From contig CAIXJC010000012.1 of assembly GCA_903919715.1 (NCBI GenBank), positions 62,001 to 126,000 of the forward strand: a stretch of 64,000 nucleotides of DNA, in the 5' to 3' direction. Numbering within the stretch: the stretch's first letter is position 1; every line of letters begins with the position of its first letter. The translations under genes were made by a program, and so were the position numbers. Below are positions 30,660 to 40,682 of this stretch, one piece after another. This stretch comes from an uncultured bacterium. GTDB taxonomy: Bacteria > Planctomycetota > Phycisphaerae > Phycisphaerales > SM1A02. Below the pieces are notes generated by a model. The model worked only from the letters and a program-made list of their open reading frames with translations. It did not search any database and had not been told where the DNA came from.

Positions 30660-31019
30660 TTACGCCTGTGTCGCTGCGCCAGCATTTCGAAACATAAAGA
30701 ATGCGGCTGCGACAAGGCATAACGTGGCGTACAAATAATCCCACGTCAGTCGCTCCTTCATGTACCACGTCGCAAATCCAGCGAAGATAATCATCGTGAT
30801 TACTTCTTGAATGACCTTTAATTGCCCAAGCGATAGCGCGCCAAATCCGAGCCGATTTGCCGGCACTTGCAGGCAGTATTCAAAGAATGCAACGCCCCAC
30901 GCAATCAGAATCGCAATCATGACGGGACGATCTTTGAGGTCTTTCAGATGCCCATACCAGGCATAGGTCATAAAGAGATTGGATCCGACGAGCAGGGCGA
31001 TCGTTGTGAAAATGCGCAT
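30660..31019 (-). CDS. DUF486 (DMT-like) small membrane protein
   Basis: 119 residues with four membrane helices. The family signature is clear: N-terminal NLFMTYAWYGHLK, then AWGVAFFEYCLQVPANRLG and QLKVIQEVITMIIFAGF. DUF486 proteins belong to the drug/metabolite transporter superfamily; the substrate is unknown. It begins 51 bases after the Wsp-like operon on the same strand and could be read through from it, but nothing ties it to signalling. Confidence 0.88.
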   Translation of the reverse strand: MRIFTTIALLVGSNLFMTYAWYGHLKDLKDRPVMIAILIAWGVAFFEYCLQVPANRLGFGALSLGQLKVIQEVITMIIFAGFATWYMKERLTWDYLYATLCLVAAAFFMFRNAGAATQA

Positions 31020-31070: not shown

Positions 31071-32243
31071 TTAAGTGAGTTTCAATTCGATAATGGAAAC
31101 ATCGTCCGTGTACTGCTCCGCCCCTTGGAGGCCGCGCGTGTACTCCAGCAATCGTGCAATTGGATCGGCGACCTTGAGGGCATCGGTTTGTGTGAACGAG
31201 AGAAACTCGGAGTAAGACCAAACGGTGCCGTCGGGCTTTGGAATTTCGACGATGCCATCGCTGTACAGATAGAGCCGATCGCCATGTTCGAGTGTTGCCG
31301 TCGATTGTTCGTATTCAAAGTCCGGGATGATGCCAATTGGCGCGCCGAGCGAATCGAGTTCGATATGTCCGCCATTCAAGCGGGTTACGAGGGCTGGAGG
31401 ATGGCCAGCGCCTGCCCACGTCAGTCGACGAGTTGGGCGATGCAGCACTGCGTACCAGCCAGTGAAGTACATGCCTCGATGTTCCGTCATCGGAAAAGCG
31501 TTGTTCAATCGCGTCATTACTTTCGCAGGTTGAAGTAACTCACTTTCGGCAAATCCGCCTGTGTGGAGAGCATTACTGACGCTGACGGACAGCAGGGCAG
31601 GTCCGACTCCGTGTCCGCAGACGTCGATCAGGAAGATGGCGAGATTATCGTCGGAAAGTTCGCGCCAGCCGAAGAAGTCTCCGCCGAGCTGGGCACTTGG
31701 GATGAAGGCGCCGCGAATGTTCAAGTCTGGGGCAGCGATCGTTGCTGGCAATAACGACTTGACGTAGTCGCCCGCTTGATCAAGTTCATTCTTCAGTTGG
31801 CGATATGCCTCGTTGCGTTCGAGCAGCGCGCAGTATCCCCTCGAGTGATATCGAAGGCGCGCGATGATCTCCAGAGGATCAGGCAACTTCACCATGTAGT
31901 CATTTGCGCCACGTGCGAACGCTTCAGCCTTTGTTGCCGCTTCTTCCTTTGAAGAAAGGACGATCAGCGGGACAAGTTTCGTCGCCTCATTCTGTCGATA
32001 GTGGAGAACGAGATCAAGACCGTCGATTCCCGGCATCACCAAATCTTGCAAGATGACCGTGGGTTCTAATTTTGAAGCCAACTCCACAGCTTTCGTCGGG
32101 TCGGCACAAAAGTGGTATTCGATTCCCGGCTGACTCGCGCAGATTCGCCGAACAGCCTCGCCGATCATCGCTTGGTCGTCAACGAGAAGGACTACTACGC
32201 GTGCATTTGAAAGAGTGGTCGATGATTGAGTTGGGTCGGACAT
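31071..32243 (-). CDS. WspR-like receiver fused to SpoIIE/PP2C serine phosphatase (output of Wsp-like system)
   Basis: 390 residues. The receiver (about 16-130) has VDDQAMIGEAVRR with acidic pocket, phospho-acceptor Asp67 in ILQDLVMPG, and SSKEE and MVKLPDP; this run is close to the receiver of Pseudomonas WspR as I remember it, including the downstream RYHSRGY and RNEAYRQL linker helix. Instead of GGDEF, residues ~170-388 form a PP2C/SpoIIE phosphatase with metal-binding Asp189 (GGDFFGW), Asp207 (IDVCGHGVGPAL) and Asp380/381 (YTDDVSI). Such phosphatases act on anti-anti-sigma or STAS proteins. It is last in the operon, 22 bases after cheB. Phosphorylation by the CheA homologue should switch it. 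Confidence 0.9.
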   Translation of the reverse strand: MSDPTQSSTTLSNARVVVLLVDDQAMIGEAVRRICASQPGIEYHFCADPTKAVELASKLEPTVILQDLVMPGIDGLDLVLHYRQNEATKLVPLIVLSSKEEAATKAEAFARGANDYMVKLPDPLEIIARLRYHSRGYCALLERNEAYRQLKNELDQAGDYVKSLLPATIAAPDLNIRGAFIPSAQLGGDFFGWRELSDDNLAIFLIDVCGHGVGPALLSVSVSNALHTGGFAESELLQPAKVMTRLNNAFPMTEHRGMYFTGWYAVLHRPTRRLTWAGAGHPPALVTRLNGGHIELDSLGAPIGIIPDFEYEQSTATLEHGDRLYLYSDGIVEIPKPDGTVWSYSEFLSFTQTDALKVADPIARLLEYTRGLQGAEQYTDDVSIIELKLT

Positions 32244-32265
32244 TCTTCCCGAAGGTTACGGGGAA

Positions 32266-33324
32266 TCAGCGATGTTGCCCAAGGTTTGCAAATCGTGAGT
32301 GCAGAATTCGACTTGCAGCAGCACCGATCTGGTCGAGTGGCAGAATCTCCGAAGCTCCGCCCATTTCCACGGCTGAGCCAGGCATTCCCCACACCACGCT
32401 CGTCGCTTGATCTTGAGCGATCGTGTGCCAACCTGAATCACGAAGCGAACGCATTCCTTGCGCTCCGTCACGGCCCATACCGGTGAGGAGTATCGCAACA
32501 CTCGGCGTGATTCGCTCTTGGACGACGCTCGCGAAGAAGACATCAACGCTTGGCCTGAAAATTTGATCGAGAGGGTCAGCCACATATCGCACGCATCCGT
32601 TTTGAACGACGAGATGGTCGGCCGTTGAGGCGACGACGATCGCCCCTAGACGCAACGCTTCGCCATGAACGCCCACAGTGACTGGTCTCTTGATCTCGCC
32701 AGTCAGCCACTGTGCGAGACCAGGTGCGTATGCGACATCGATATGTTGCACGATGACGACGCAGCATGGTGGCGCTGTTGCGAGTGCTCGCAGAACAACG
32801 GCGAGTGCATGTGGTCCGCCAGTTGATGATCCGATTGCGACGAGTGGAAGATTTGTCAGTCCAGCTGCTTTCGAGGTCGACGTTGGCCGGTTGACCACAA
32901 TGGTTTGCGGCATGGTCCGACTGATTTGTACAGCTGTCGCGGCGAGTGCAACCCGCGCTTTGCGGGCGAGTGCATCGACACCTAGAACGGTTCCGTTTGG
33001 ACCCAGTGTTGGTGTGTGGACAGCATCGATCGCCCCTGCACTCAGGGCTTCATATACGAGCGCAAGATTTCCTTCAATCGTGCTCGTCACAACGAGGACC
33101 GGACATGGGTATTGCTTCATGATCGCGCGTGTCGCAACTGCACCATCCATGATCGGCATCACCATGTCCATGAGGAGTAGATCTGGTCGATCGTCCTTAC
33201 ATTTTTGAACCGCTTCACGTCCGTCGGCCGCGACCCACGCCACTGATGCTCCAGGGATTTGACCGATTGCGTGGCGAAGAATTTCTTGCGCCATGCGCAG
33301 GTCATTGACAATGGCGATGCGCAT
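32266..33324 (-). CDS. CheB/WspF-like protein-glutamate methylesterase
   Basis: 352 residues. Receiver (about 1-120, acceptor Asp in LLLMDMVMPIMDG) linked to a CheB catalytic domain (about 155-345) with Ser in AIGSSTGGPHAL, His in IVQHIDVAYAPG and Asp in LLTGMGRDGAQG. Removes methyl groups from the MCP, resetting its sensitivity, under control of phosphorylation by the CheA homologue. Its ATG shares one base with the stop of the CheA gene. The place in the operon corresponds to wspF. Confidence 0.94.
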   Translation of the reverse strand: MRIAIVNDLRMAQEILRHAIGQIPGASVAWVAADGREAVQKCKDDRPDLLLMDMVMPIMDGAVATRAIMKQYPCPVLVVTSTIEGNLALVYEALSAGAIDAVHTPTLGPNGTVLGVDALARKARVALAATAVQISRTMPQTIVVNRPTSTSKAAGLTNLPLVAIGSSTGGPHALAVVLRALATAPPCCVVIVQHIDVAYAPGLAQWLTGEIKRPVTVGVHGEALRLGAIVVASTADHLVVQNGCVRYVADPLDQIFRPSVDVFFASVVQERITPSVAILLTGMGRDGAQGMRSLRDSGWHTIAQDQATSVVWGMPGSAVEMGGASEILPLDQIGAAASRILHSRFANLGQHR

Positions 33325-35627
33325 CAGACAGCAGCCCCGATGAGATCGGAGATCGTCTGGAGAAACGATTGATCTTGAAAAGACCCTTTCGTGAGATATG
33401 CCGAGGCTCCGGCCTCGAGTCCTGCGAGTCGATCTTCTTCTCGATCTTTGTAACTCACAATCACAATCGGCAACATTTCGTATCGTCGATCCGCACGTAT
33501 TTTTCGCACCAATTCGATGCCGTTCATGCGCGGCATATCAACGTCGCTCACCACGAGGTCGTACTTCATCTTCTGCACAGCGTTCCACCCATCCATTCCA
33601 TCGACGGCTGTATCGACGGCATAGCCCGCACGAAGCAGCATCTGCCGCTCGACTTCTCGCACGGTGATCGAATCTTCGACCACCAAGACACGGCGCTGTT
33701 TTCGCTTGCTGCTCGTTGATCGTCCTTCGTCACCGCGCAACTTGCCTTGCTCGAGCAGTTGGAGCGCTGACTGAACAAGATCCTCCGCGTCCAAGATGAG
33801 CAGGAGGTCGCCGTTCTCGCGGATACTCGCAGCATCAACGTGAGCGATATCTCCAAATCGTCCATCCAATCGACGAACGACGAGGTCTTCTTCACCTAAG
33901 AATGAATCGACGACGAATCCAACAGTACGGGCTCCTGCGAGAACGCTGACGACAGAGAGTTCTTCTGCGTGGTCCGTCTGTGATGTCGACTTGAGCTCCA
34001 ATATTTCCATCGCATGAACGAGGCCGACGGTCTCGCCGCGAATAACGGTCGTGAGTCGCCCTTCAACCGTCTTTAAATCGCTTCGAGCAATTCGATCGAT
34101 TCGTTCGAGTCGCGATAGCGCAAGCGCATATGTTTCGCCAGCAATCGAAATGACGGCGGCGCGAACGACGGAAAGCGTCACGGGAAGGCGCATCGCGAAA
34201 GATGTTCCAGCAGGGCTTGAACGAACTGCGATGGATCCACCCACGGAATGCGCCATCGACTGCACGACATCTAATCCGACTCCGCGTCCCGAAATATCTG
34301 TGACCGTTGCAGCCGTAGAGAAACCAGGCAAGAAGAGAAAGTCGAAGAGTTCCGCATCGCCCAATGTTTCGACGATCTCCGGAGCGGAGAGTTTTTTGGA
34401 AACGATTCGCGCACGGAGATTCGCTCGGTCGATTCCACGCCCGTCTTCGCGAACTTCAACGATCAAGCTTCCCGCGTGATGCCGCGCCTCGACACGTAAG
34501 GTGGCCTGTCGGGGCTTGCCAACTGCGACTCTTTCGTCTGGAGATTCGATGCCATGATCGATCGCATTGCGAACGAGATGCCCAAGCGGTGCTTCAAGTT
34601 GGCGAAGAATCTCACGGTCTACTGGAACGTGTTCGCCAGCGAGAACGAGGCGAACTTCTTTCCCAAGGGTTCGTGCGACGTCGCGAACAGAGCGAGACAA
34701 TCCGCCACACGCATCTCCGAATGGGCGCATGCGGCTTGAGACTGCTTCGTTGTGCAGTGCGCTCGCGAGTTCTTCGCCGCGCCGAAGGTGATCCTCAACT
34801 TGGCGCAGTGCGTCCTCGAGTGCGTCACGACTCACACTCACCGCATTCATCGCTTCGCCTGCCTTGCGGCCGTTCAATTGCAACGAATCGAGTGCGTCTG
34901 AAAGTTGTCGTTGCGCGACTTTCGCTCGTGTCAGTGTTCGCCGAATGGATTCCAGCCGACGAGCTTCGACGAGCGACTCACCTGAAAGTTGCAAGAGTCG
35001 CTCGAGGCTTGATGATGAAACGAGGACCGCAGCATCTTGCCCACCACTCGCACCTTGGGAAGCTGGCGCGGGCGTTGCAGCCTTTGGCGGGACAGTAGCA
35101 GTTGGCGCAGGCGCAACTGCCGGAGGTGCAACGGGCGCAGGCGCAATCGGTGCAGGCGCAATCGGTGCAGGAGTTGGAGTCGGCGCAATCGGCGCAGCTG
35201 CAATCGGCGCCGGCGCAGAACTTCCCGCCTTGGGCGGTTGGTTCAGTGCTTCAGCAAGCGCAGCGAGTGGCAGGGCTTCTTGCTGGAGCCACGCTCTTGC
35301 CTCTTCTTCAGTCTTGTGGTCCGCGAGTGAGCGCAAAATGTCGCTGCCTCGTAGCAATTCATCAATGCGAGAAGCCGTCGGCGTTTCAGTACCTCTTTGG
35401 ATGCGAACGAGACACTCTTCCATTGAATGCGCTAACCCAACTGCGACGTCGAGATTGATGATTCGAGCTGCGCCTTTGACTGAATGTGCAGCGCGCATAA
35501 GTGGTTCGACCATTTTCGGATCGCTCGAATTTTGTTCGAGAGCAATCAATCCATCCGACAGACATGCGCAGTGCTGCTGCACTTCAGTCTGAAAGAGGTC
35601 GAACATGGAGAAGCCGCCTAAATCCAT
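33324..35627 (-). CDS. CheA/WspE-like hybrid histidine kinase with receiver
   Basis: 767 residues. HPt domain with phospho-acceptor His48 in RAAHSVKGAAR; the N-terminal DLGGFSMFDLF matches the WspE type. Then an Ala/Pro linker (about 136-190) replaces the P2 domain, followed by dimerisation helices, an HATPase domain (NAIDHGIE, DGRGID, GRGVGLDVV), a CheW-like domain, and a C-terminal receiver with acceptor Asp695 in VVSDVDMP. The attached receiver is the hallmark of WspE. It phosphorylates CheB and the PP2C output protein when the MCP is active. It follows the CheW gene at 35645 by 17 bases. Confidence 0.94.
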   Translation of the reverse strand: MDLGGFSMFDLFQTEVQQHCACLSDGLIALEQNSSDPKMVEPLMRAAHSVKGAARIINLDVAVGLAHSMEECLVRIQRGTETPTASRIDELLRGSDILRSLADHKTEEEARAWLQQEALPLAALAEALNQPPKAGSSAPAPIAAAPIAPTPTPAPIAPAPIAPAPVAPPAVAPAPTATVPPKAATPAPASQGASGGQDAAVLVSSSSLERLLQLSGESLVEARRLESIRRTLTRAKVAQRQLSDALDSLQLNGRKAGEAMNAVSVSRDALEDALRQVEDHLRRGEELASALHNEAVSSRMRPFGDACGGLSRSVRDVARTLGKEVRLVLAGEHVPVDREILRQLEAPLGHLVRNAIDHGIESPDERVAVGKPRQATLRVEARHHAGSLIVEVREDGRGIDRANLRARIVSKKLSAPEIVETLGDAELFDFLFLPGFSTAATVTDISGRGVGLDVVQSMAHSVGGSIAVRSSPAGTSFAMRLPVTLSVVRAAVISIAGETYALALSRLERIDRIARSDLKTVEGRLTTVIRGETVGLVHAMEILELKSTSQTDHAEELSVVSVLAGARTVGFVVDSFLGEEDLVVRRLDGRFGDIAHVDAASIRENGDLLLILDAEDLVQSALQLLEQGKLRGDEGRSTSSKRKQRRVLVVEDSITVREVERQMLLRAGYAVDTAVDGMDGWNAVQKMKYDLVVSDVDMPRMNGIELVRKIRADRRYEMLPIVIVSYKDREEDRLAGLEAGASAYLTKGSFQDQSFLQTISDLIGAAV
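35055..35220 (-). repeat. Ala/Pro linker repeat within the CheA-like gene
   Basis: An imperfect coding repeat of GCxCCx/GGCGCAATCGGTGCAGG-type units that encodes alternating Ala-Pro/Ile (APIAPAPIA). It forms a flexible linker between the HPt and dimerisation parts. The units differ by single bases; no mobile-element features. Confidence 0.7.
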
Positions 35628-35644
35628 CAGTAAAGTTCCATTCG

Positions 35645-36226
35645 TTATCCAATCGCCTTTTTAAATTCATCGAGCAGTCGAACGGGATCGATGAGGCACG
35701 CTGGACCGTGAGTTGTGACCAGCAGTCCGCTTGAAATTCTTCGTGGCGCTTGTTCCACGGTTAATGGCAATGGTTTGACCGACGCACGCGGCATTGCATA
35801 GACACCTGGCACTTCATCGACTTCAAATGCCCACGATTCCGCAACCGTACCGACTGTCACCATTCGTGGTTTCGAGACGAGGGAATTGTTTGCGAGTGGA
35901 AGATCGAGCATTCCAAGAAAATCGATGACAGGCACGACTGCACCCGAACTCGCAGTCAGCCCCCGAAAGGCATGATTTGTTCGGTGCGGAAGGGCGTGCA
36001 CATTGGTGACTCGTGAGACATGAACCACTTGTTCGGCTGGCATCGCGAACCATTCGGAGCCGCAGCGAAAAAGCAAAAGATTGTATTGGGGTTCGCGTCG
36101 TAATACTCGCGACTCTGCACTGGCCTTCGTCGCTTCTGCAACTGTCGTGGGAAGATTCGGTCGATCGAGTAGGCGCGCCATTGCTGCGCGTTGATCGGAG
36201 GAAGTTGGAGAATCTTCAGTGCTCAT
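35645..36226 (-). CDS. CheW/WspD-like adaptor
   Basis: 193 residues. One CheW domain (about 48-188) with NLLLFRCGSEWFAMPAEQV, LPHRTNHAFRGL and the VPVIDFLGMLDLP strand-turn. A 45-residue polar N-terminal extension is extra, as in WspD compared with WspB. It couples the receptor to the kinase. It is the second CheW in the operon and follows the CheR-TPR gene by 13 bases. Order and extension match wspD. Confidence 0.87.
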   Translation of the reverse strand: MSTEDSPTSSDQRAAMARLLDRPNLPTTVAEATKASAESRVLRREPQYNLLLFRCGSEWFAMPAEQVVHVSRVTNVHALPHRTNHAFRGLTASSGAVVPVIDFLGMLDLPLANNSLVSKPRMVTVGTVAESWAFEVDEVPGVYAMPRASVKPLPLTVEQAPRRISSGLLVTTHGPACLIDPVRLLDEFKKAIG

Positions 36227-36239
36227 GACGGAAATCTCT

Positions 36240-37496
36240 TCAGGAATCGCTCAATCTTTTCAGCCTCGCTTGGTAGCGTTTGGCATCATCTGTTCGCCCG
36301 AGTGCATTCGACAATTCAGCCAATGCAAGCAGAGCCGGACCATGATTGGGATCAAGGTATACGAGCCTTGCATATGTTTGGCTTGCGCGGACAAGTTGAT
36401 TTTGAGCCGAGAAAAGTCCCGCGAGCAGCTCGATCAATTCAATATTGGTTGGACTTGCGCTGAGCCCAGCCTCAATCAGTCGTTGTGCGCTGTCAAATTC
36501 GCGGGCAGCGAGCATGGGCTGGACCCGTTGAGCAATCGACAGTGTTGTTGACACAGGCGTCGGCGCAACAGGAGTTGGGCGGGAAATGGCTGATGGGCGC
36601 AGTGTCGCAGCGATTGTCCGCACGATTGGAGGCAAGACGCTTGGCCGGATGACTCGGGGTTGAGGAGTTGCTGGCGCCTCGGCTGGGGCCGTCTTTGCAC
36701 GAGGTCTCCAAGCGAATGCGGCGGGTGGTCCTGCCATTTCGAGCACCATTCCTCTTTCGAGTCCATCCGCATGTCCAAGAAACACGAGTCCGTCTCGAGC
36801 AACCCAGTTCACGATTCGGTCACGCAACAGTACTCGAGCAGCAGCGTCGAGATAAATCATCACGTTTCGGCAGAAGAGGGCGTCGACCGGTTGTGTGAAG
36901 AGCTCAGGCGTCGTGAGCAGGTCTGCTTCGCGAAATTGCACGCAGCTGCGAACTTCAGGCGAAAGAACAACCGAAGAACCTTCTGTACGGATCCACGCTT
37001 CGGCCCAGTCAGGCAGCGCATTTCGCAAACTTCCGCCTGGAATTCGACCCTGGCGGGCCGATGCAATAGCAAGAGGGCTTCGATCAATCGCATGAACGAT
37101 CACTCGATCTTTCGGCCATCCTGCCGAGAGCGCACATGCTGCGATGCACCACGCCTCCACCCCAGTTGCACACCCAAGGCTCGCAGCGATCAGGTTGCTC
37201 GATGAATCTTGCAATCGTCGAGTCAAATGTTCTCGCAGGAAATCGAAGCTGGCTGGATATCGAAAGAACCATGTTTCTGGAACAGCGACTTCACTCGCTA
37301 AACATTGCAATTCATAATCGCTCTGCTCAACTTTCGTTGCGTATTGCGCGACGTCGGAAATCGCTAGTTGGTGCATGCGCCCACGTACTGCACTTGCAAA
37401 TGCTGGTCCATCCAAGAGGGCAGGGGCAAGGCTCGCACGCTCGGTCAATAGACGCGCGATCCAGAGCACATCACGAATTTCGCTTGGCGAACTCAC
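36240..37496 (-). CDS. CheR/WspC-like MCP methyltransferase with TPR tail
   Basis: 418 residues. CheR domain (about 40-255): AdoMet site SLGCATGVEAWCIAA near 100, QFREADLL, and FCRNVMIYLDAAARVLL. After a Pro/Ala/Thr linker, TPR-like helices (about 320-415), with LIEAGLSASPTNIELIELLAG and YLDPNHGPALLALAEL. It methylates MCP glutamates with AdoMet. The TPR tail is the mark of WspC. The start is GTG in GTGA overlapping the stop of the CheW gene at 37493, so the adaptor and CheR are co-translated. Confidence 0.93.
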   Translation of the reverse strand: MSSPSEIRDVLWIARLLTERASLAPALLDGPAFASAVRGRMHQLAISDVAQYATKVEQSDYELQCLASEVAVPETWFFRYPASFDFLREHLTRRLQDSSSNLIAASLGCATGVEAWCIAACALSAGWPKDRVIVHAIDRSPLAIASARQGRIPGGSLRNALPDWAEAWIRTEGSSVVLSPEVRSCVQFREADLLTTPELFTQPVDALFCRNVMIYLDAAARVLLRDRIVNWVARDGLVFLGHADGLERGMVLEMAGPPAAFAWRPRAKTAPAEAPATPQPRVIRPSVLPPIVRTIAATLRPSAISRPTPVAPTPVSTTLSIAQRVQPMLAAREFDSAQRLIEAGLSASPTNIELIELLAGLFSAQNQLVRASQTYARLVYLDPNHGPALLALAELSNALGRTDDAKRYQARLKRLSDS

Positions 37497-37954
37497 GCCG
37501 CGCCTATCGCATCGCGAAAGAGGCCGCGGTTCTCGTCGTCAACAATCTTGGTTGGATCGAGCAAGTAGATATCACCATCAGCGTCTGCAGCAATTTTTGT
37601 GAGTGCGCCTCGTCCCGCTCCAGTAATGCCTGGGTGGGTTCCTGCACCATCGAAGTCGATCGTGAGAAGACTTCCCACGCTGTCGACGAGGATTGCCAAT
37701 CTCATGTTTCCGCCAGCTGCACCAACTTGCAACAGAATCGCACGAGCGTTCATCGTTCTGACGACGGGGTTTCCTGTGCAAATCATCGCAGCATCAAGCA
37801 GAGGCACAAATGCCCCTCGAAGCCGAGCGATTCCGATGATCCAGTCGGGTGTTCCCGAGAGTTTTCGGGCTTCAACAATCGGCAAAACTTCATCGATTGC
37901 ACGAACAGGAATCGCACACCGCTGCTGTCCAAGCCATACTTCAACAACACGCAT
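37493..37954 (-). CDS. CheW/WspB-like adaptor
   Basis: 153 residues, almost only a CheW domain: N-terminal MRVVEVWLGQQRCAIPVRAIDEVL, IARLRGAFVPLLDA and the closing IYLLDPTKIVDDE. This compact form matches WspB, while the second CheW (35645) has an extension like WspD. It starts 12 bases after the MCP gene and is followed by CheR through a GTGA overlap. Two adaptors in one operon imply separate receptor-kinase contacts, as in the Wsp system. Confidence 0.9.
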   Translation of the reverse strand: MRVVEVWLGQQRCAIPVRAIDEVLPIVEARKLSGTPDWIIGIARLRGAFVPLLDAAMICTGNPVVRTMNARAILLQVGAAGGNMRLAILVDSVGSLLTIDFDGAGTHPGITGAGRGALTKIAADADGDIYLLDPTKIVDDENRGLFRDAIGAA

Positions 37955-37966
37955 TTGGAAATTCCA

Positions 37967-40126
37967 TTACGACATTTCGGAAACTCGAAACGTCTCGACG
38001 CCGTTTCGTAATCCCGCGATTGATTCTTGAAGTCCCGCCGCAGCGCGACACGTTTCTTGCGCAGCAGTCACAGTCTCGCGTGCGCCGCTGGTGAGTTGTC
38101 CCATCGCTTCGGATATCTGCTTCGCACCTTCCGTCTGTGCCTTCATCCCTTCGGCGACTTGGGCAAAGTCAGTTGTGCCAGCCTCCACCTGTTCGATGAT
38201 TTGGCCGAGCTGAGCTCCGATGCGTGCGGTTTCAGTCACGCCACGTCGAACTTGTTCGCTATAGCGATCCATTTCCATGACGCCTGCGCTGACCGCACCT
38301 TGCATGTGTCGAACGGTTTGTTCGATATCCAACGTTGCGGCAGCGGTTTGATCCGCCAAGCGGCGAATTTCTCGTGCAACCACAAGGAATCCGACGCCAT
38401 GTTCGCCAGCCTTTTCAGCTTCAATCGCAGCGTTGACCGAAAGGAGATTTGTTTGATCAGCAACTTTTGTGATCGTCGTCACAATCGTATTAATCGAACT
38501 TGCTTTTTCGCTGATCGTTGAAAGGCGTCCAGCGATCGAGTGTGTTCCAGCATCGAGAGACTCCATCGCTGATGTCATGCCTTGGAGCGAGTGGCGACCA
38601 TCGCGTGCAAGATCAGCGGTCGAATTGGCACGCGTTCCGACCTTCTCCATCAACTGGGAAAGGTCTGTAGCGGTCGTCGAAATCTCCTTAATTGCTGCTG
38701 CAATTTGGGTCGTACTTGCTCCCAGTGACTGGGAGGAACCATCTTGTTCGCGTGCCATCGCAGCTAACTCTGTGGCCGTCGAATTGATGTTGACGGTCGC
38801 TTGCTTCACTCCGCGAACAATCGTCTGCAACGATTGCGCCATCGTATTGAGAGCCCGAAGCAGTGATTCTGTTTCGTCTCCACCCTCGACGACCACAATT
38901 TGCGTGGAGAGGTCTCCGGACGCAATTTGATCAGCGACAATATTCGCCCGACGAACGCGGCGCGTGATCTGTATTGAAGGAATCAAGAGCGCGACCGTGA
39001 CGATCGCCAACCCGCCAAATCCTTGTGCGCTTTGCGAATAGATTTGAGACCAAATTGGAGCAAGCATCGCCTCTTCGGACTGCCGAAGAATTAATGTCCA
39101 ACCACCAGTCGCGATTGGCACACTTGTATAGACGCAGCGTGTCTTCAAGACGGGATCTTCCGCATACTGCATTGCTGCGGATTTCGACTCTCGCATTTTG
39201 TCGAAGAGTGCTTCGTACGGGCTGCTCTCGACGGTATGAGTTCGGAGAATTCCGTTGGTGTCTGACTCGTCGGAACGAATTTCATCCGTCGTTACGGCAA
39301 TAAATGCTGGGGATTTTTCAAACCCAGGCGTGTCTCGGCCGGACGAGATCAGAAAACCGTCCACGTCTATTTTTTTACACACGCTGCGCAAGTGTTGGTC
39401 AATGCTTTTCAGCGACCGATCAGCACCGCCGATTCCAACGAATTTGCCATCAATAATAATCGGGCATGTTTGCTCGATCATCATCTGCCCTTCGTACACA
39501 TACGGTTCGGTGATTCGCGCCTCGCGCGATCCACTTCGTTCGAATTCCTTGCGGATACCTCCAAACCACAGGCTGGCGTCTTGATCGATACACGGCTTGA
39601 CAATGATCGCATCGCCGTTTTTCCAGTCCTTCCACGCACAGGGGCAGAATCGACCAGCCGCATTGAACGCCCCTGGGATGACGGGCGCCGCTTTTGCCGA
39701 AAGAGTGGCAGCCGAGTCGTAATCGACATGGGCCAAAGTCGCAGTCGGTTCATAATCCACATAAGCCGTAATCACTCCAGAAGTCGAACCCAAGAGCGCG
39801 TTCAATAGAGAAACCGTTTCGGTAAATTTTCCGTACATCCCGTTTTCTTGCGCGCGCGCAAGGAATGTCGCCAATCCCAGAGTCGATTCGTTATCGCCAT
39901 CCAACTCAACCCCGATTTCTGCAGCCGTAACGCGCATTAACTCCTCTTGGCCCTCCCGAAAGTCGCTCAGACTGTGCCGATTTCCAAGACCGACGAGCAA
40001 AAGCAATATGATCGCAGACGGCAGTACCCCTAATAAGAGGAATCTTGCGAGTATGGATCGTCGAAATTGGATATGGGACCCGACGTGGCTTCCCCCAAGT
40101 GATTCTTGTTTCGTATTTGCTCGCAT
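37967..40126 (-). CDS. Methyl-accepting chemotaxis protein, WspA-like
   Basis: 719 residues. First membrane helix about 28-48, a large periplasmic sensor (about 50-365, PAS-like dCache type with PYVYEGQMMIEQTCP and GWTLILRQS), a second membrane helix about 375-392, HAMP (about 393-445), then a methyl-accepting coiled coil whose tip reads VADQTNLLSVNAAIEAEKAGEHG. The tip differs from the usual ALNAAIEAARAGE only slightly. There is no C-terminal pentapeptide for CheR docking; it ends FRVSEMS. The periplasmic domain is the input; its ligand is unknown. First gene of the seven-gene operon; the upstream 145 bases likely hold the promoter. Confidence 0.95.
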   Translation of the reverse strand: MRANTKQESLGGSHVGSHIQFRRSILARFLLLGVLPSAIILLLLVGLGNRHSLSDFREGQEELMRVTAAEIGVELDGDNESTLGLATFLARAQENGMYGKFTETVSLLNALLGSTSGVITAYVDYEPTATLAHVDYDSAATLSAKAAPVIPGAFNAAGRFCPCAWKDWKNGDAIIVKPCIDQDASLWFGGIRKEFERSGSREARITEPYVYEGQMMIEQTCPIIIDGKFVGIGGADRSLKSIDQHLRSVCKKIDVDGFLISSGRDTPGFEKSPAFIAVTTDEIRSDESDTNGILRTHTVESSPYEALFDKMRESKSAAMQYAEDPVLKTRCVYTSVPIATGGWTLILRQSEEAMLAPIWSQIYSQSAQGFGGLAIVTVALLIPSIQITRRVRRANIVADQIASGDLSTQIVVVEGGDETESLLRALNTMAQSLQTIVRGVKQATVNINSTATELAAMAREQDGSSQSLGASTTQIAAAIKEISTTATDLSQLMEKVGTRANSTADLARDGRHSLQGMTSAMESLDAGTHSIAGRLSTISEKASSINTIVTTITKVADQTNLLSVNAAIEAEKAGEHGVGFLVVAREIRRLADQTAAATLDIEQTVRHMQGAVSAGVMEMDRYSEQVRRGVTETARIGAQLGQIIEQVEAGTTDFAQVAEGMKAQTEGAKQISEAMGQLTSGARETVTAAQETCRAAAGLQESIAGLRNGVETFRVSEMS

Positions 40127-40271
40127 CTAATTTACCTTCGTTGTATACTACTTAAGTAAGAGTACGGAATGTCCGTCACTCGTTTCTCAAGGTTTGCGCC
40201 TGCGCTTCGATGTCCTACGCTTCATTTCGTATCGGTATTCGCTGAGCTTGCGCTTGAAGGAAGGTATTGTT
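40127..40271. promoter_or_regulatory. Divergent control region between the MCP operon and the RRM gene
   Basis: 145 bases between two divergent starts. It contains a perfect 10-base palindrome TACTTAAGTA at 40149-40158, a GTATAC palindrome at 40143-40148, and TATACT at 40144-40149, one mismatch from a -10 box for the plus-strand RRM gene; a good -35 was not found. AAGGAAGG lies 7 bases before the RRM start. Position, not motif strength, is the main support. Confidence 0.3.
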
Positions 40272-40682
40272 ATGAAGCTGTATGTAGGAAATCTCCCGTT
40301 TAAGGCTACGCAGGAATCTTTGGCTGAGTTTTTTGGTCAGTTTGGCGCTGTCGCTGAAGTTTTTATCGCAACTGATCGTGAAACCGGTCGTTCGCGTGGA
40401 TTCGCATTCGTCACGATGGCGGACGATGAATCTGCAAAGAAGGCAATCGAAGAATCAAATGGCAAGCCATTTGATGGTCGCAACCTCACTGTGAACGAAG
40501 CTCGTCCACCTGCCACTGGCGGCGGCGGCGGCGGTCGTGGTGGATTTGGTGGCGGCGGTGGTGGTGGCGGCGGCCGTAGTGGCGGCGGCTACGGTGGTGG
40601 CGGCGGCGGTCGCAGTGGCGGCGGCGGCGGCTACGGCGGTGGCGGCGGCGGTGGCGGTGGCGGCGGACGCGACCGTTATTGA
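40272..40682 (+). CDS. Glycine-rich RNA-binding protein (RRM)
   Basis: 136 residues from the ATG at 40272, preceded by AAGGAAGG at good spacing; an open TTG start 78 bases earlier is not favoured. One RRM (about 1-80) with RNP2 LYVGNL and RNP1 RSRGFAFV. The rest is a Gly/Arg/Tyr/Ser tail of about 50 residues ([13 protein letters not shown]) ending GRDRY. This architecture is that of bacterial and plant cold-induced GRP proteins, which bind RNA and act as chaperones in cold stress. The DNA encoding the tail is a long GGC/GGT tract. A strong terminator follows. Confidence 0.93.

Follow-up and report, generated by a model that had tools for sequence, protein, structure and literature searches.

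Among chemotaxis-type machines that produce cyclic di-GMP (c-di-GMP), the Wsp system is the textbook case, and its output protein in Pseudomonas, WspR, joins a receiver (REC) domain to a GGDEF domain. Here, we have analysed a Wsp-type operon whose output carries a SpoIIE/PP2C phosphatase domain and not GGDEF. The operon lies in a stretch of 64,000 nucleotides of contig CAIXJC010000012.1 (positions 62,001-126,000; assembly GCA_903919715.1), hereafter the window, to which the coordinates below refer unless a locus or another contig is named.

Chemosensory clusters with phosphatase outputs have been reported. According to the accessible text of a 2012 survey (PMC3447774), family 2C phosphatases are among the REC outputs of clusters encoding CheR-TPR, and its reference 20, a survey of alternative cellular function (ACF) systems, is said to report the same kinds. 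The window operon resembles these clusters in combining a CheR-TPR protein with an output that joins REC to a family 2C phosphatase, and this pairing of CheR-TPR with a multidomain response regulator is a criterion for the ACF class in PMC3447774. It differs in what can be said of the output, since the accessible listing mentions neither a WspR receiver nor partner genes, and gives neither a linker nor a mechanism. The excerpts available for Shewanella describe a Che1 locus that includes CrsR and CrsA, a partner switch acting on RpoS (PMC9855816, PMC6482189), and those for stage 1 F7 clusters mention anti-sigma antagonists and a serine phosphatase (PMC7184735). Che1 is comparable in being a chemosensory locus that encodes both a REC-PP2C and a STAS protein. 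Unlike the window system, as far as these excerpts go, it is an F7 array with CheY and CheD, and CrsR has a third, kinase/anti-sigma domain fused behind PP2C; in the window output, the SpoIIE match stops at residue 388 of 390 and no such domain follows. Pseudomonas HsbR, which works with HsbA, is described there as fed by HptB and not by CheA.

In Bacillus cereus, the available text of PMC4574943 has the methylation-controlled kinase RsbK acting on the REC-PP2C protein RsbY, which dephosphorylates RsbV. The RsbK-RsbM-RsbY system thus shares a kinase under methylation control and a REC-PP2C output with the window operon, but it has one hybrid histidine kinase and no MCP/CheW/CheA array. The RsbU/RssB-type PPM phosphatases treated in PMC12143880 are built, like the window output, from a regulatory domain, a coiled-coil linker and the phosphatase, and the proposal is made there that PPM, GGDEF and histidine kinase outputs can exchange their receivers; WspR receivers go unmentioned in the accessible part of that paper, whereas in the present loci a single receiver type is joined to PP2C, GGDEF, histidine kinase, HD-GYP and cyclase outputs. 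The author of an earlier note on this DNA was not aware of any described system of this kind. The phosphatase outputs listed in PMC3447774 and the partner switch of Shewanella Che1 (PMC9855816), even as partially accessible, make that statement too broad. A description of a WspR receiver on a SpoIIE phosphatase, or of its mechanism, was not recognised among the papers listed in searches of an open-access library, which lacks most subscription papers.

The operon consists of seven open reading frames (ORFs) on the minus strand, between positions 31071 and 40126, which form a single string in the Wsp order, namely methyl-accepting chemotaxis protein (MCP), CheW, CheR-TPR, CheW, CheA-REC, CheB and REC-SpoIIE as the output (Table 1). 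The ORF list and Pfam agreed on this arrangement, and the intergenic gaps in transcription order were 12, -4, 13, 17, -1 and 22 bp, confirming the compact Wsp-order operon of the earlier note. The same gene order is seen in Wsp operons of Mesorhizobium and Azoarcus plasmids. The presence of PP2C in place of GGDEF in the last gene was likewise borne out, as this gene gave a strong SpoIIE match and no Pfam match to GGDEF was obtained anywhere in the operon. ORFs and Pfam revealed no single-domain CheY among the operon genes, and neither the operon nor its immediate surroundings yielded a STAS or anti-sigma gene.

By its sequence, the output receiver is of the WspR type. The receiver was 58-63% identical to those of seven canonical Wsp operons. 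We have built a WspR-receiver profile exclusively from these seven REC-GGDEF operons, which come from plasmid records (Cupriavidus, Mesorhizobium, Azoarcus, two Novosphingobium, Variovorax and a Hyphomicrobiales; the receiver occurred in 20 plasmid records, seven of which were retrieved together with a further record from Sinorhizobium). The window output scored 206 bits on this profile, whereas the receivers of CheA and CheB reached 43 and 23 bits, respectively. A PDB sequence search matched output residues 4-156 to 3bre (4.9e-56) and 3i5a (4.1e-52), which the PDB lists as response regulators and which we take to be WspR. The next-best match, the REC-PP2C protein 3eq2, was far weaker (2.2e-24); the accessible text of PMC12143880 names it RssB. 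The likeness to WspR extends into the linker helix, so that receiver and linker start are homologous to WspR, and beyond it SpoIIE stands in place of GGDEF. Given a WspR-type receiver and a SpoIIE C-terminal half, the PP2C phosphatase therefore occupies the GGDEF position of WspR.

The collection of homologous operons and alignment of their outputs that the earlier note had proposed for Phycisphaerae was carried out phylum-wide. Scanning 392 genomes with the output protein yielded 18 further full-length orthologues, sharply set off and 43-54% identical to the window output, and the gene adjoined CheA and CheB in 17 of the 18 loci. The exception (L063) is a three-gene string of REC-SpoIIE, STAS and RsbW. 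A second scan covered 84,980 species genomes, from which the named loci are the best 80 of at least 588 matches. Pooling the phylum and species sets gave 99 outputs, or 96 distinct ones after removal of three duplicates; proteins scoring 100 bits or less on the window receiver (e.g., L078, L079, L083-L087 and the HD-GYP protein of L144) were excluded from these 96 and from the 114 receiver proteins considered below. The closest named loci were from metagenome-assembled genomes, whose titles are fallible, with outputs 90% (L148, titled Singulisphaera) and 80% identical (L149, Baikal-deep, Phycisphaerales). Judged by such relatives, the host is a planctomycete, likewise known from a metagenome-assembled genome.

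At least five of the six che gene types were present in the fetched stretch for 50 of the 96 outputs, many stretches being cut by contig ends. In these 50, the che genes lay mainly upstream on the same strand (39), downstream on the same strand (8, Gemmata-like) or in divergent orientation (3). A stricter count, requiring CheA, CheB or MCP, gave 73 of 96, the other 23 including short contigs. The CheA rows of SpoIIE operons carry the labels of nine phyla; since near-identical rows are labelled Desulfobulbaceae and Ignavibacteriae, some of these labels must be wrong. As judged from these comparisons, the linkage of REC-SpoIIE to che genes is more than chance, and the window operon is a real, conserved and widespread variant of the Wsp/ACF kind. 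Separately, four Pirellula/Gemmata loci (L189, L191, L195 and L201) belong to another CheA clade and have a divergently oriented REC-SpoIIE gene.

The receiver acid pair, phospho-Asp and Lys, together with the PP2C metal-binding aspartates, were conserved in all 96 distinct outputs, window included, and the receiver Ser/Thr site was Ser in 94 and Thr in two. The linker, measured from the receiver Lys to the Tyr closing the linker helix, took only two lengths in these 96 proteins: 41 residues in 22 rows, including the window, and 48 in the remaining 74, a difference of exactly one heptad. This trait changed at least seven times among 61 rows of the concatenated tree described below, so the one-heptad step has apparently been repeated, with the reservation that this tree was built quickly and some of its forks are unsettled. 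Control segments of the same proteins behaved differently, two being invariant in length and the most variable ones spanning 47-54 and 46-64 residues without a heptad step. In the nine GGDEF outputs of the sample, the distance to the catalytic domain was 52 in the eight measured and the same by eye in the ninth. These lengths suggest a coiled coil with a functional register as a simple explanation, which would match the RsbU mechanism set out in the accessible part of PMC12143880.

The same receiver type is joined to several other outputs. Among the fetched loci, 114 proteins had a WspR-type receiver above 100 bits, comprising 99 with SpoIIE, 9 with GGDEF, 3 with HD-GYP, 1 hybrid histidine kinase, 1 class III nucleotidyl cyclase and 1 without a recognised output; as the sample was gathered mainly via SpoIIE outputs, these counts are no guide to true proportions. 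The same operon in genome G110 (L080) has a receiver-kinase as its output, one operon (L187) ends with REC-HD-GYP followed by REC-SpoIIE, and another (L182) with REC-cyclase followed by REC-SpoIIE, the cyclase being a WspR-type receiver fused to the class III nucleotidyl cyclase and encoded within the che operon (L182:8338-9798, plus strand). In two Methylococcaceae-like loci (L184 and L210), a GGDEF Wsp operon is divergent to REC-SpoIIE, and in L210 a STAS gene comes next. In three planctomycete relatives (L144:4339-6102, minus strand; L179:2645, plus; L218:81, plus), a REC-GAF-HD-GYP protein with an output-like receiver is encoded immediately ahead of the operon. A single CheA may therefore control a c-di-GMP phosphodiesterase as well as a phosphatase.

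The earlier note had the system rewired away from second-messenger production, and this direction of change was neither shown nor excluded by our trees. In a CheA tree of 87 rows, from which three duplicates had been dropped, the window CheA fell in a Wsp-type clade of 72 rows (SH-aLRT 100) comprising 61 SpoIIE, 9 GGDEF, 1 histidine kinase-output and 1 further row. A concatenated tree of four segments had 75 rows, after leaving out L189, L191, L195, L201 and L223 (fewer than three segments) and a further seven rows of the outgroup that were long or otherwise unusual. Both maximum-likelihood trees nested the GGDEF-output Wsp operons within the SpoIIE-output diversity, the concatenated one placing them within a 25-row group with support of 93. 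The approximately unbiased (AU) test did not reject a placement of GGDEF outside all SpoIIE forms (p 0.27); moreover, sampling was biased, SpoIIE loci having been collected by output whereas most GGDEF loci came from plasmids, and only a distant outgroup was used.

A phylum scan with CheR is free of this output bias. It covered 382 genomes, 188 of them with some match, and the comparison was made on the 17 genomes with the closest CheR besides that of the window (E up to 4e-29), leaving out G279, which has another operon type. A REC-SpoIIE orthologue was present in 15 of the 17, although CheR and output were on separate contigs in G201, G234, G254 and G295. The remaining two were G110, the hybrid-kinase form, and G189, whose contig ends before the output; a GGDEF output was not seen beside the CheR of any of the 17. 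Counter to this picture, PMC6461901 contains, in its accessible text, Wsp annotations including WspR in planctomycetes. A tentative and rather doubtful extension of these data is that Wsp might be one case of a general chassis, in which a fixed receptor-kinase array and one receiver type are kept and effectors (PP2C, diguanylate cyclase, HD-GYP, nucleotidyl cyclase, hybrid kinase) are swapped at a heptad-spaced coiled-coil joint. The phosphatase/partner-switch form would then be older and more widespread, and the c-di-GMP form of Pseudomonas a later branch.

We have then considered what the phosphatase may act on. STAS genes in relatives were sought with a home-made profile, some stretches ending early. 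In 9 of 96 loci (L063, L067, L156, L161, L173, L178, L209, L210 and L214), the output had a STAS and/or RsbW-type gene no more than 500 bp away, and in three more (L185, L224 and L225) RsbW was found upstream, where the che genes begin or close to that point. Partner-gene matches were concentrated beside the output, with 13 of 20 falling less than 1 kb from it, in 182 of 1392 kb (binomial p ~1e-7, a generous value as the loci are related). The clearest case is L178, where MCP, CheW, CheR, CheW, CheA, CheB, REC-SpoIIE, RsbW and STAS stand in a single row, the last three confirmed by Pfam. At L067:8091-9599 (minus strand), an RsbW-type ATPase, encoded convergently to REC-SpoIIE, is followed by a weak match to a GNAT acetyltransferase.

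The host genome (G000) is 2.9 Mb in size and 94% complete, so that 6% may be missing. A genome-wide search for STAS and anti-sigma genes, also proposed in the earlier note, found STAS at 15 places and two HATPase_c_2 (RsbW-type) proteins above the cut-off. When the genome was searched with a profile of the seven output-linked STAS proteins of relatives, an orphan STAS of 104 residues (G000:C17:6014-6328) came top with 96 bits, followed by one at 74 bits, which makes it the best STAS candidate partner in the genome. The candidates of RsbW type are C69:11087-11458 and C27:123535-123882. On C69 (L237:6040-7729, plus strand), an RsbW-type ATPase, a STAS protein and an MlaE permease are encoded consecutively, possibly a partner switch on lipid transport. 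At C27:67614 (L017:1492-2643, plus strand), an ORF of 383 residues has STAS followed by an aminoglycoside-phosphotransferase-type kinase domain, as recognised by eye.

Partner switching is a likely output because partner genes stand beside the output in some relatives and STAS and RsbW-type genes are present in the host genome, and it is the best-supported mechanism. On this part, the earlier note stood; its more specific suggestion of a sigma-factor target drew no support from the locus, there being no STAS or anti-sigma gene in or beside the operon. Overall, the note was right in its observation and probably right in its functional inference, and its claims of novelty and direction were too strong.

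Several findings weigh against partner switching as the output. In 87 of the 96 loci, including the window, the 500 bp around the output gave no match to STAS or RsbW-type genes, and the window operon itself contains no partner gene. Three of the partner-linked loci (L063, L209 and L214) have no che gene in the stretch, two others (L067 and L173) have the partner gene on the strand opposite to the output, and five outputs (L162, L165, L194, L209 and L227) have no che gene despite 9 kb on each side. The candidates in the genome are also not singled out sharply: the C17 STAS is 31-40% identical to the linked STAS proteins and the best BLAST match of five of the seven, the remaining two preferring C27:67614 and C69, and the 11 linked RsbW proteins of relatives are split between C69 (8) and C27 (3).

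With these points weighed, the reading we consider likely is that the operon encodes a complete, self-adapting Wsp-type unit, in which CheA most likely phosphorylates a WspR-type receiver helically linked to PP2C, and a STAS/RsbW partner switch follows. Phosphorylation of the output receiver by CheA would alter the dimeric linker and switch the phosphatase on. The active PP2C would dephosphorylate a STAS (anti-sigma-antagonist) protein, which in turn would capture an RsbW-type kinase/anti-sigma factor and so set free the client of the latter, either a sigma factor or some other target. Adaptation of the output would come from CheR-TPR and CheB, through changes in the methylation of the receptor. 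Phosphotransfer, the sign of its effect, the substrate and the client are what we infer from sequence comparison.

RsbW-type ATPases are often anti-sigma factors, and the genome encodes a FliA/WhiG-like sigma factor (subtype assigned by eye); both speak for a sigma-factor client. Against this, the client of the STAS partner could be, for instance, a diguanylate cyclase, as with HsbA and SiaC in Pseudomonas, or an MlaE-type transporter, a possibility to be taken seriously though it falls short of even chances. It is favoured by the C69 gene order, with the permease directly after the RsbW-STAS pair, and no sigma gene was seen adjoining the C17, C69 or C27 STAS genes in the stretches inspected. 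In the accessible portions of the respective papers, the cyclase HsbD is given as the binding partner of HsbA (PMC6482189) and SiaD as the protein on which SiaC acts (PMC9239204).

If the phosphatase instead acted on Ser/Thr-phosphorylated proteins other than STAS, such as substrates of Hanks-type kinases, the partner genes of relatives would be incidental, and the 87 outputs with none detected within 500 bp would be as expected. The enrichment of partner matches beside the output argues against this, as do the Pfam family, which is SpoIIE-type and not eukaryote-type PP2C, and the closest characterised REC-PP2C proteins (HsbR/CrsR and RsbY), which by the available descriptions act on STAS proteins; we regard this alternative as improbable.

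Still less credit can be given to c-di-GMP as the physiological output, with CheA phosphorylating a stand-alone REC-GGDEF protein and REC-SpoIIE being secondary. The genome does encode three GGDEF proteins, including one REC-GGDEF (C24), and in some relatives HD-GYP proteins with similar receivers are encoded before the operon (L144, L179 and L218) or inside it (L187). On the WspR-receiver profile, the C24 receiver reached 64 bits, a value like those of unrelated receivers (62, 58 and 43), whereas the operon output had 206; C24 is, moreover, a different contig. This protein was rejected as the true target as its receiver is not WspR-like, which left little support for the refuting case of the earlier note, a GGDEF protein elsewhere as the real phosphorylation target. 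Finally, chemotaxis by flagella or pili, with the phosphatase as an accessory, which the full MCP, CheW, CheR, CheA and CheB set might suggest, is the most improbable of these readings, given the lack of a single-domain CheY in the operon, the CheR-TPR protein, which the accessible text of PMC3447774 ties to ACF pathways, and the absence of any FliG match in the 94% complete genome, on which ground the flagellar form was rejected; type IV pilus genes were not searched for.

Returning to the likely Wsp-type partner-switching unit, its array appears to be the only one seen in the genome. All three CheW-domain matches fall inside the operon, hence one CheA and one chemosensory system were seen, and one of three MCP matches is in the operon. 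The operon MCP has hydrophobic segments at residues ~23-50 and ~367-388, then HAMP and, C-terminal of it, a signalling domain of 285 residues. Because of the periplasmic region of ~320 residues between the hydrophobic segments, surface sensing cannot be assumed; the match of a PDC sensor was weak (0.0064) and under the cut-off. A motif check of CheA identified the Hpt histidine as H48 and found the N, G1 and G2 boxes, and no further Pfam domain was matched between Hpt and HATPase.

Table 1. Genes of the operon and parts of its output protein, in window coordinates.
Feature	Position	Strand	Evidence and details
MCP, 719 aa	37967..40126	-	Pfam HAMP 3.7e-10, MCPsignal 3.8e-29
CheW, 153 aa	37493..37954	-	Pfam CheW 1.2e-19
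CheR-TPR methyltransferase, 418 aa	36240..37496	-	Pfam CheR 6.8e-30, TPR_19 1e-08
CheW with ~45-residue N-terminal extension, 193 aa	35645..36226	-	Pfam CheW 5.7e-17, residues 50-187
CheA-REC hybrid kinase, 767 aa	33324..35627	-	Pfam Hpt, HATPase, CheW-like, REC
CheB methylesterase with receiver, 352 aa	32266..33324	-	Pfam CheB_methylest 1e-49; NCBIfam NF009206 above cut-off
Output (WspR-type receiver, helical linker, SpoIIE/PP2C), 390 aa	31071..32243	-	Pfam SpoIIE 2.1e-40, Response_reg 1.2e-17
Output receiver, aa 18-130	31854..32192	-	Pfam; acid pair D22/D23, phospho-Asp D67, S97, K119
Output linker, K119 to Y160, 41 residues	31764..31889	-	Distance measurement
Output SpoIIE/PP2C domain, aa 197-388	31080..31655	-	Pfam; Asp D189 (just N-terminal of Pfam range), D207, D329, D380/D381

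The upstream neighbour, divergent to the operon, encodes a glycine-rich RRM RNA-binding protein (40194-40682, plus strand). Downstream, 51 bp past the output and on the same strand, is a gene for a DUF486 membrane protein (30660-31019, minus strand) that is possibly co-transcribed.

If many operons share the machine and receiver of Wsp but end in a phosphatase, partner switching would be tied to the gain and adaptation of chemosensory arrays beyond the F7/CrsR case as well. That a single receiver type occurs with PP2C, GGDEF, HD-GYP, cyclase and kinase domains, together with the one-heptad linker steps, would make the "exchangeable toolkit" put forward in the accessible text of PMC12143880 testable with natural pairs.

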